Shown here: piece after piece, positions 57,690 to 60,760 of the stretch
How the letters are laid out: each line of letters starts with the position of its first letter
Position numbering within the stretch: position 1 is the stretch's first letter
Assembly (NCBI RefSeq): GCF_000757885.1
Contig: NZ_JQCR01000003.1
Span: 1,364,001 to 1,428,000 of the forward strand
Source: Paenibacillus wynnii
GTDB taxonomy: Bacteria > Bacillota > Bacilli > Paenibacillales > Paenibacillaceae
Reading direction: 5' to 3'
Length of the DNA: 64,000 nt
Made by a program: the position numbers and the translations under genes
The notes under the pieces: model-generated
Told to the model about the DNA's origin: nothing
The model's input: only the letters and a program-made list of their open reading frames with translations
The model's database searches: none

Positions 57690-57990
57690 TTAGGAAATAC
57701 AAAAACTCCCGCCCCAAAAGGGACGAGAGTTTTATCCTCACGTGTTACCACCCAAATTTATCAATACCTCACGATATTGAACTTTTCAGGTACGACACCA
57801 ATTCATTGATGGTTATACCCTAGCACAATAATGGGTGCACCCAGCACAACCTACTTCCTATAAAGGGTTCGATGTGCAGCTCAGAGACCATGTTCGAAAG
57901 ACATTTCTTTACCCCTTTTCAGCTAACGGGGTTCTCTGTGAAAGAAATAATTTAACTACTCTTTCTCTTCATAGCAATTTCCAATATATA
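57690..57990 (-). promoter_or_regulatory. T-box riboswitch leader with terminator
   Basis: On the minus strand the leader has GAAAGAGTAGTTAA, then ATTTCTTT pairing with AAAGAAAT around AGAGAACCCC-GTTAGCTGAA-AAGGGGT (Stem I with the AG-bulge/GCTG apical motifs), then GAACATGGTCTCTGAGC (3' side of the specifier region, plus coordinates 57879-57895). Next comes the T-box GGGTGGTAACACG (57741-57753) and a terminator ACTCTCGTCCC / GGGGCGGGAGT with TTTTT (57701-57733). The specifier codon could not be fixed by eye; GTC (Val) and neighbouring triplets are candidates. It controls the GNAT gene. Confidence 0.85.
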
Positions 57991-58141: not shown

Positions 58142-58346
58142 TTAACTAGAGTATTCATTGAGATTTTTTTTCGATCTCTGCAATCAGCAGGTACTTTCTC
58201 TCGCACTCCACTACGATTAAAGAATGTGTTATCGGAGCATCTAGAGAGTTGTAAATAAGCTAATTCTAAGTGATGAATTGTATTGATTTTTTTTCCAGAA
58301 AAGGTTATTTTATAGACAGCTTAGCGATAAGCAAGTTCCTGACACG

Positions 58347-58580
58347 AAGGGAGATGTTTTTTAATGGCAACTACTTATAGGGTGGTTTGGTCTTAAAACT
58401 GAATAGCAGGCATATGCGAAAAAGCGGGAGAACGCCCGTATTATTTGATATGCCCTCAAAGTAACCTTTCGTGAATATTGCTGTTTGCAGATACGATGAA
58501 GGTCGTATCTTTTTTGCGTCCTGATGCCGCGCGACAGCAGCTTCTTTAGAGGCTGCTTGTCCGTGGCATTTTTGCGTCCA
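58347..58580 (+). promoter_or_regulatory. Leader-peptide attenuator upstream of rsgA
   Basis: An AAGGGAG site and a 10-codon peptide gene are followed by a GGCATAT/ATATGCC hairpin with an inner CGGG/CCCG stem (58409-58453). Next comes terminator 1, AGATACGA/TCGTATCT plus TTTTTT (58489-58515). Terminator 2, GATGCC...GACAGCAGC/GCTGCTTGTC...GGCAT plus TTTTT (58522-58573), follows. The tract TTTTTGCGTCC occurs after both terminators. This layout is typical of ribosome-stalling attenuators that open when an antibiotic stalls the leader. Confidence 0.7.
58364..58396 (+). CDS. Putative leader peptide MATTYRVVWS
   Basis: A 10-residue peptide gene starting with ATG ten bases after AAGGGAG and ending in TAA, upstream of the hairpins and two terminators of the rsgA leader. 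Its likely role is as a sensor of ribosome stalling, not as a product. No known leader was recognised. Confidence 0.55.
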   Translation: MATTYRVVWS

Positions 58581-58611
58581 AAAACAACATTAAAGGAGCT
58601 AACAAAAAAAC

Positions 58612-59685
58612 ATGATGAATTTGAAAAGCTATGGTTTCACAGAAATAGAAACAAATCCCGACGGATTATTGCCCGGTAGGGTGACGGAGCTTCGGCGTGA
58701 GCGCTTCACGATCATGACCGAGCGTGGCGAAGTAACGGCGGTACTCAAAGGCGCGTTCTATCACAGCGCGGAAACGCGCGTAGACTTTCCGTGTGTCGGT
58801 GACTTTGTCTTGCTGCACTACAACGAGAACGGAGATTCTCTCATCGTTACGGTACTGCCCCGCCGCTCCAAGTTCTCACGTGCAGATTACTCAGGGCATG
58901 CCATAGGCTATGCCAAAACCGTGCGGGAACAGGTCGTTGCAACCAACTTTGACTATGTGTTTATCCTTTCTTCTCTGAATTGGGATTTCAGCATTACCCG
59001 CATCATGCGGTACCTGACACAAGCCAGGCAGAGCGGCGGGCAGCCGGTCGTCATTCTGACCAAGGCCGATCTCATTGAAGATTATAATCTCCCGCTCGCA
59101 GAGGTCACACAAAGCATTCCTGATGTCCCGATTCACGCGATCAGCAGCCATACAGGCCTGGGGCTGAGCGAACTCGATCCCTACTTGATGCCTGGTAAAA
59201 CAGTCGTCTTTCTTGGTATGTCCGGCGTCGGTAAATCGTCTCTGCTCAATGCATTGATAGAACAGGCCGTAATGAAGGTTCAGGCCATCCGAGAGGTCGA
59301 CAGCCGGGGGCGGCATACGACAACGCACCGTCAGCTGTTTATGCTCCCCTCCGGTGCGATGGTTATCGATACGCCAGGTATGCGTGAGCTTGGGCTTTTT
59401 GATGCCAACGAAGGCATACGCGCAAGCTTTACCGATGTGGAGGAATGGTTCCCGAAATGCCGATTTACGGATTGCCGCCATCAGGCCGAGCCGGGCTGTG
59501 CCGTTCTCGCCGCGCTGGAGGGCGGTTCGTTGCCGCGTGAAAGGTGGGAGCATTATGTTGCTCAGCAGCATGAAAATAGGTATGTCCAGGATAAAACAAG
59601 CTATCTTATCGATAAGAGGGCTCGAAACAAAACGATCGCCATGTGGAGCAAGCAAACGAAGAAAAACGGAGGATGGAAGAAATGA
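58612..59685 (+). CDS. rsgA: RsgA-type circularly permuted ribosome GTPase
   Basis: A 357-residue GTPase, longer than standard RsgA (about 300). An N-terminal OB fold (PGRVTELRRERFTIMTERGE) leads to a permuted G domain in the order G4 (ILTKADLI), G5 (HAISSHTGLG), G1 (GMSGVGKSSLLNAL), G2 (GRHTTTHR) and G3 (DTPGMREL). A zinc knuckle (CRFTDCRHQAEPGCAV) follows. RsgA matures the 30S subunit and binds near the decoding centre. This copy lies in an accessory region with an attenuator leader and is coupled by ATGA to a phosphotransferase gene, so it is probably a second, specialised paralogue. AAAGGAG precedes the ATG. Confidence 0.88.
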   Translation: MMNLKSYGFTEIETNPDGLLPGRVTELRRERFTIMTERGEVTAVLKGAFYHSAETRVDFPCVGDFVLLHYNENGDSLIVTVLPRRSKFSRADYSGHAIGYAKTVREQVVATNFDYVFILSSLNWDFSITRIMRYLTQARQSGGQPVVILTKADLIEDYNLPLAEVTQSIPDVPIHAISSHTGLGLSELDPYLMPGKTVVFLGMSGVGKSSLLNALIEQAVMKVQAIREVDSRGRHTTTHRQLFMLPSGAMVIDTPGMRELGLFDANEGIRASFTDVEEWFPKCRFTDCRHQAEPGCAVLAALEGGSLPRERWEHYVAQQHENRYVQDKTSYLIDKRARNKTIAMWSKQTKKNGGWKK

Positions 59686-60702
59686 ATATTAAAATCGAAA
59701 CGCTAATCTATGTCTTAAGCCAACGGTTCAAGAAGGATATCATATCGGCCGACTACCAAACCATGCCATTACAAGGCGGAACTATGGGAAATGTGTCCCT
59801 GGTAACGGGAATCGCCGAAACCGCAGATGGCCAAAAAATGCCGTACCGTATCGTGCTGAAAATTCAAAAGAAATGGGAACGTTACAACGATCCGAATTCC
59901 TGGCGCCGGGAATTTGATCTCTATATGTCTGACTTGGGAATGACATTCTCGGCTGCCTTCCGCTGGCCGACATGTTATTACGCCGAGATCAATGCCGAAG
60001 AAAATGAATTCCTGTGGCTAGAATATATCGATGGCGTAACCGGTTTAGACTTGACCGGAGAGATGTGTGAACAGGCCGCGCTGGAGTTGGGACGCTATCA
60101 AGGCAAGCTGTATGCGGAGCAGCCCGCTATGCTACAGAGCCTGACTAACCTGAGCCATGCTGATCTCATGAAGAATACGTATCTGCATTACCGGTCATGG
60201 CCGGTCGTCTATGATTATATACGCTCGGAGGACTGCAAATTCCCGCAACATGTGCGGCAAATGCTCATCGACATCGATGAGCACGCAGTCGAGATATTCG
60301 CCCGCATTGAGCAATTACCCCTCGTGCTGTGCCACCGCGACTTCTGGGTGACCAACCTGTTCTATGCCAACGGAAAAATCGTGCTTATCGACTGGGATAC
60401 TTCCGGATGGGGCTACCTGGGCGAGGATATCGCAAGCCTGATTGCAGATGAAGTGGATATCGATCTCGAACATATGGTCGAATACTACCGGCGGTGTGTT
60501 CCCGCGTATTACAAAGGTTTTTCGGAATATGCAGATGCCCCCCCCTGTTGCCGACCATTGCGTCTACGAGATGATCCTTCTCATATTCGGATACAGACTT
60601 GTGGAGGGGTATCTCCTCACAGAAGACGATAACGAGAAGACGAAGTGTGGAGATATGCTCCAAAAAATCTATGAAATGAAGACCAGCCCTGTGCAGGGTT
60701 GA
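59682..60702 (+). pseudogene. APH-like phosphotransferase, frameshifted at a C8 tract
   Basis: The gene starts at the ATG overlapping the rsgA stop, after GGAGG. The kinase-like fold shows GGTMGNVSLVTG (nucleotide loop), YRIVLKIQKKWER (Lys), FLWLEYIDGVTGLDL (hinge), LVLCHRDFWVTNLFYANGKI (catalytic H-x-D-x4-N) and IVLIDWDTSGWGY (Mg-binding Asp). At 60538-60545 a run of eight C shifts the frame, and the current frame ends at 60632 in an unrelated basic tail. Removing one C restores PPVADHCVYEMILLIFGYRL and a TGA at 60702. It is either an inactivating error or a slippery tract giving on/off expression. Confidence 0.75.
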
Positions 60703-60706
60703 CTCT

Positions 60707-60760
60707 AAAAAAAGAAATCCGCAAACCCATGAATGAAGTGGGTTTGCGGATTTCTTTTCA
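60707..60760 (+). terminator. Strong intrinsic terminator of the rsgA unit
   Basis: AAAGAAATCCGCAAACCCA pairs perfectly with TGGGTTTGCGGATTTCTTT across a 9-base loop. It can act on both strands. Confidence 0.92.

Follow-up and report, generated by a model that had tools for sequence, protein, structure and literature searches.

A translated leader and two terminators before an extra rsgA gene

What would a short translated leader followed by two consecutive intrinsic terminators control in front of a surplus copy of rsgA, and to what signal would it respond? The locus lies on the forward strand of a 64,000-nucleotide stretch of the Paenibacillus wynnii genome (contig NZ_JQCR01000003.1), here called the window, to which all coordinates refer. 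The original prediction, made from the sequence, was that of an antibiotic-inducible, ribosome-stalling attenuator. We consider it likely that the locus encodes a ribosome-mediated transcription attenuator that would silence a resistance-like cassette until translation is disturbed, a reading that draws on comparative support and in which a drug would be the inducer. The architectural side of the prediction held up, with mutually exclusive pairings, a conserved translated leader, and acetyltransferase, phosphotransferase, and methyltransferase targets in other Firmicutes.

The putative RNA switch spans ~300 bases ahead of the rsgA2-kinase cassette and combines a tiny translated peptide, long-range RNA pairing, and two back-to-back terminators; with its promoter it occupies 58283-58611 and precedes an intact extra rsgA gene. 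The leader peptide with its own Shine-Dalgarno (SD) sequence, the hairpin, and the two terminators were all located where they had been placed by the original prediction. A sigma-A-like promoter (TTGATT-17-TATTTT; 58283-58311), recognized from the sequence, is kept in all close relatives and marks the start of cassette homology, and the transcription start is predicted at ~58316-58319. The leader SD sequence (GAAGGGAG, 58347-58353) is followed by an open reading frame encoding MATTYRVVWS (ATG GCA ACT ACT TAT AGG GTG GTT TGG TCT TAA; 58364-58396). Folding and comparison place a hairpin, P2 (58409-58454), between the leader stop codon and a nearly invariant bipartite switch strand (AACCUUUCGUGAAUAUUGCUGUUUGC, 58463-58488), the alternative partners of which are the leader 5' arm, the T1 5' arm, or the T2 5' arm. 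Intrinsic terminator T1 (58490-58515), supported by sequence and fold, consists of a stem at 58490-58509 followed by T6, and T2 (58523-58573; -33 kcal/mol) of a stem at 58523-58569 followed by T5. The SD sequence of rsgA lies at 58592-58598.

The leader has a folding z-score of -4.49, and 0 of 100 shuffles were as stable. As judged from sequence, this is not a chance arrangement, because 20 loci from several genera share the block at 90% identity and the frame is kept in 42 close leaders. In the window, TTTTTGCGTCC follows both terminators, as had been claimed; the repeated GCGTCC after T1 is confined to the close cluster, diverged leaders having none at that position, and a functional role for the duplicated TTTTTGCGTCC was dropped on account of these diverged leaders without a copy after T1. 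No description of the present leader was found in the literature searched, a search outside of which lay preprints and most subscription journals.

Conservation of the leader frame and a rule linked to the stop codon

Conservation of the peptide in homologous leaders, on which the original prediction had staked itself, is borne out in every close homologue. Start, stop, and frame are kept in all 42 distinct close leaders (start codons: 37 ATG, three TTG, and two GTG), in which the length of the reading frame changes only by -3, 0, or +3 nt while the stretch after the stop codon varies by single bases. A short reading frame with an SD sequence is also present in 48 diverged leaders, with frame and starts retained. 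On this comparative evidence, the leader is translated.

Conservation within the frame follows an NNG-GTG-RTT rule (AGG GTG GTT in the window, 58379-58387) in which GTG is codon -4 relative to the stop codon and which forms an internal SD match. GTG occupies codon -4 in 45 of the 48 diverged leaders and is preceded by G in 47, and the other codons vary freely. Across the same leaders, the duplex between the octamer at -15 and the 16S anti-SD averages -9.1 kcal/mol, making this the strongest position from -45 to +14 around the stop codon. We infer that this distance would fit a ribosome whose A site contains the stop codon or lies directly beside it. As an alternative, GGUG might pair with the switch strand (GGU:ACC); we rejected this because the match of the conserved GGUGRU to 16S AUCACC is longer than that to the switch strand. 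In the literature searched, there was no report of NNG-GTG exactly four codons before a stop codon.

One switch strand with alternative partners

Mutually exclusive anti-antiterminator (P1), antiterminator (AT1 and AT2), and terminator pairings are present, as examined by folding and permutation tests. Without a ribosome the OFF fold is strongly favoured. In this fold, P1 forms between the leader SD region and the switch strand: its 5' arm (CACGAAGGG, 58343-58351) overlaps the leader SD sequence and pairs with 58465-58473 (pair probability 1.00), and a 5' extension, P1ext (GCGAuaAGCAA, 58324-58334), pairs with 58478-58488 (0.95). P1 is supported by co-variation, C-G being replaced by U-A on both sides in four loci (L060, L124, L128, and L129), and 42 of 5000 full-arm permutations were as good.

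AT2 is formed by the second half of the switch strand and the T2 5' arm (GCGACAGCAG, 58531-58540). In 22 diverged leaders, the cognate AT2 duplexes reach -8.6 kcal/mol versus -6.6 kcal/mol for non-cognate ones, and only 2 of 5000 permutations were as good; the pairs that co-vary differ greatly in sequence, being UUGCUGUUUGC:GCGACAGCAG in the window and CUGUAAACU:AGUUUGCAG and AGCUGCUGUUU:AAACAGUAGCU elsewhere. AT1 is formed by the first half of the switch strand and the T1 5' arm and loop (ACGAUGAAGGU, 58493-58503). T1 stems are unrelated between subtypes, yet CGA...AGGU is retained. The permutation test for AT1 was not significant (3294 of 5000) because the switch strand hardly varies, and compared with shuffled partners the pairing is moderate only (mean z -1.4); support for AT1 is weaker than for AT2. 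AT1 and AT2 formed at once would create a pseudoknot. Natural variants fit the two-terminator scheme, one locus having T1 only (L020) and another T2 only (L144).

To place the ribosome, we considered the transcript with its 3' end at 58504, the decision point, at which the probability of AT1 is 0.20 without a ribosome; with a ribosome masked at successive positions, the values are 0.85 (start codon), 0.12 (codon 3), 0.42 (codon 5), 0.87 (codon 8), and 0.61 (stop codon). Because only a ribosome at the start codon covers the P1 5' arm, we favour the start codon as the probable stall site; masking codon 8 or the stop codon also raises AT1, and computation does not fix the site. At equilibrium, both terminators are preferred in the complete leader whether or not a ribosome is masked, and completed T1 wins at every ribosome position; therefore, the ON state must be kinetic.

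A mobile cassette encoding RsgA2 and an APH-like kinase

The gene directly behind the leader, rsgA2 (58612-59685), encodes an extra RsgA-type circularly permuted GTPase of 357 aa with intact G motifs (TKxD, GMSGVGKS, and DTPGM) and an intact C-terminal zinc motif (C-x4-C-x-H-x5-C); it matches PF03193 (E=2.5e-46) and TIGR00157 (157.7 bits versus a cut-off of 100). It is one of three rsgA genes in the 6-Mb genome, the other two sharing 43% and 33% identity with it. The tree groups the leader-linked RsgAs in a long-form subfamily (DTPGM), which is separated from canonical RsgA (DTPGF) by a branch with 100% support and also has leaderless members. RsgA2 thus lies outside the canonical, one-per-genome clade, and the genome has its own canonical copy elsewhere. 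A canonical RsgA is likewise present in all 15 of the other genomes examined with the leader before rsgA, and in two genomes in which the leader precedes other genes the canonical copy is the only one. In three loci (L142, L112, and L155), the RsgA2 behind the leader is fused to a C-terminal RNHCP zinc domain (PF12647).

The second gene (59682-60702) overlaps the rsgA2 stop codon (ATGA) and encodes a kinase of the APH family (PF01636), in which HRDFWVTN and IDWD, corresponding to the HxDxxxxN and DxD-type motifs, are invariant or nearly so. In the window, a run of eight C (60538-60545) shifts the frame ~50 residues before the end relative to 338-aa relatives and may be a real mutation, a phase-variable tract, or a sequencing error. 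The structure model of the kinase is of low confidence (pLDDT 64), and its Foldseek matches (a macrolide phosphotransferase as the top PDB match, the AmiN amicoumacin kinase, and APH(3')-Ia; E ~2e-3 to 1e-2, TM ~0.25) are too weak for naming a substrate. An intrinsic terminator (60713-60760) ends the operon.

The promoter, leader, rsgA2, and kinase form a sharply bounded cassette of ~2.5 kb (about 58281 to about 60793) that recurs at 82-97% DNA identity with unrelated flanks in Paenibacillus, Brevibacillus, Bacillus, Neobacillus, and Psychrobacillus. A protein scan of GTDB genomes yielded 30 loci, many of them 81-93% identical and from the same five genera. The leader motif is patchily distributed, occurring in 26 of 150 Paenibacillaceae genomes. 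By sequence comparison, we conclude that the cassette is mobile. Searches of plasmids, viral contigs, and DNA similarity returned neither leader nor cassette; in the plasmid collection, rsgA-like genes had less than 56% identity, and one of these, in Acetoanaerobium noterae, has the leader. Beside the cassette promoter of one locus (L025, 2290-2649, reverse strand), a stretch looks, by eye, like the coiled-coil region at the C-terminus of a large serine recombinase, and similar flanks occur in L004, L006, L007, and L016; these may be remnants of the process that moved the cassette.

About a dozen loci have a deleted or broken rsgA, and wherever their downstream sequence is long enough to judge, the kinase has a single intact frame; one locus (L055) has lost the kinase alone and another (L054) both genes. 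The original prediction of a switch "before rsgA" was therefore too narrow, the cassette comprising rsgA and the kinase, and because rsgA is repeatedly lost while the kinase stays intact, the kinase is the steadier output of the cassette, though it is frameshifted in the window itself. Leaders are nearly unchanged in five loci (L054, L056, L034, L036, and L037) despite deletion of rsgA or, in L054, of the whole operon.

A wider leader family in Firmicutes

The family was extended with two covariance models, the E-values of which are rough and the related matches of which are not independent, giving 8 carriers among 398 Bacillota, 13 among 349 genomes from the window's class, and 24 among 391 from another Firmicute class (that of G521). 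Carriers outside Bacilli include Clostridiales, Defluviitaleaceae, and Oscillospiraceae MAGs (L020, L024, and L028) and Acetoanaerobium noterae (L108). The usual first gene, present in 25 of 39 covariance-model loci, is rsgA-like and of the same long subfamily; first genes of the remaining loci include those for a GNAT protein, a 555-aa GNAT-APH fusion, an APH, methyltransferases, and an ABC ATPase. Four weak matches with distant first genes (L124, L132, L135, and L137) were left out as evidence on targets. The APH, GNAT, GNAT-APH, and methyltransferase families encoded downstream of the leader are without a match among named resistance models. The fusions (555-591 aa; L140, L141, and L144) join a GNAT acetyltransferase to an APH-like kinase in a layout resembling that of bifunctional AAC-APH enzymes.

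Proposed mechanism and alternatives

An antibiotic that jams ribosomes probably turns on the downstream genes, because the leader recurs across Firmicutes before genes for a GTPase and for enzymes of drug-modifying types. In our model, transcription would begin at ~58317 and the leader would then be translated. Upon normal completion of the leader, the SD region and the upstream GCGA..AGCAA would pair with the switch strand (P1), and T1 and then T2 would form, keeping the cassette OFF. A ribosome held on the leader by a drug, particularly at the start codon, with the P1 5' arm under its footprint, would free the switch strand, so that its first half could capture the T1 5' arm and loop and its second half the T2 5' arm, allowing read-through into rsgA2 and the kinase (ON). 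The internal SD match probably detains the ribosome at the stop codon as it finishes, which would leave P1 free, block re-initiation, and make the OFF state sharper. Of the two proteins, the kinase would inactivate the drug, for which we prefer a 30S-directed one, and RsgA2 would act on drug-struck 30S subunits.

A macrolide-type arrest of the nascent chain, in which V-V/I at codons 7-9 of the peptide would stall a drug-bound ribosome near the end of the leader and so reshape the RNA, is in our view unlikely. The ermC and ermA leader peptides, which are drug-induced and act by translation attenuation of rRNA methylase genes, are likewise short with V-V or V-I near codon 8, and IAVV in ErmAL1 and IFVI in ErmCL are arrest-peptide motifs; V followed by V, I, or A is conserved near codon 8 here, AT1 reaches up to 0.87 with a ribosome on that codon, and the best PDB match of the low-confidence kinase model would suit a macrolide. 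However, unlike in ermC and ermA, the rule in the present leader is anchored at the stop codon rather than at the start and concerns nucleotides (G as the third base of the codon preceding GTG); the residue before V varies (E, M, R, K, T, or G), the peptide ranges from 8 to 13 residues, a ribosome on codon 8 leaves the P1 5' arm uncovered, and the genes found behind the leader include no erm, ABC-F, or macrolide esterase gene.

Sensing of general translation capacity (free ribosomes or amino acids) rather than of a drug, by an amino-acid-starvation attenuator or a ribosome-homeostasis switch, could be argued from the ribosome-assembly type of the rsgA2 product and from the pairing of the leader SD sequence with an RNA-encoded anti-SD-like strand. 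We regard it as improbable: the leader contains no run of regulatory codons, its neighbouring or alternative targets are of drug-modifying-enzyme rather than biosynthetic types, and its distribution is patchy and mobile. Still more remote is a small-molecule riboswitch or protein-binding leader with an incidental reading frame, which would agree with a large conserved RNA containing nearly invariant segments but not with three-base length changes in a frame kept in 42 of 42 close leaders, nor with an alternative pairing that explains the most conserved strand; moreover, Rfam gave no covariance-model match in the leader at any threshold worth noting.

Returning to the drug-responsive attenuator, its fullest version, to which we give somewhat less than even credence, would be an uncatalogued, widespread Firmicute RNA family that senses initiation-arrested ribosomes (30S-directed antibiotics), in which one bipartite strand disarms two terminators and an internal SD match holds the finishing ribosome, and which drives RsgA2 as a new resistance or ribosome-protection GTPase.

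Relation to known systems

By analogy, HflXr and VmlR illustrate the same logic applied to other genes by unrelated leaders. The hflXr (lmo0762)/rli80 attenuator of Listeria monocytogenes, for which a role in resistance was shown, likewise precedes a surplus gene for a GTPase that acts on the ribosome and comprises a short leader reading frame with anti-antiterminator, antiterminator, and terminator; it differs in encoding HflX (70S splitting) and in having one terminator and an RLR peptide (PMC6310831), whereas the present system has RsgA2, two terminators, the NNG-GTG rule, a kinase partner, and an unrelated leader sequence. In the vmlR leader of Bacillus subtilis, a ribosome on a uORF that lies in the anti-antiterminator helix prevents this helix, again by transcription attenuation, but the uORF encodes a tripeptide, the target is an ABC-F protein, a single terminator is combined with an SD-sequestering hairpin, and there is no shared sequence family (PMC9226507). 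An antibiotic-responsive extra RsgA is also known from the WblC/WhiB7 regulon of Streptomyces coelicolor, in which the second RsgA/EngC, SCO6149, is antibiotic-induced and SCO5211 is not; control there is by a transcription factor rather than an RNA leader (PMC7157823). In a survey of producers of protein-synthesis inhibitors, rsgA was among the marker genes (PMC9290621).

If our reading is correct, the leader would be a searchable tag for candidate resistance genes (RsgA2, kinases, acetyltransferases, and methyltransferases) answering the same drug stress, many unannotated Firmicute genes would become testable, RsgA would join the short list of ribosome GTPases recruited against antibiotics (TetM and HflXr), and the locus would provide a clear case of one switch strand controlling two terminators.

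The only Rfam match near the leader, upstream and on the other strand, is a T-box leader (RF00230, 109 bits; 57716-57981, reverse strand); the gene immediately behind it encodes a GNAT acetyltransferase, not a usual T-box target.
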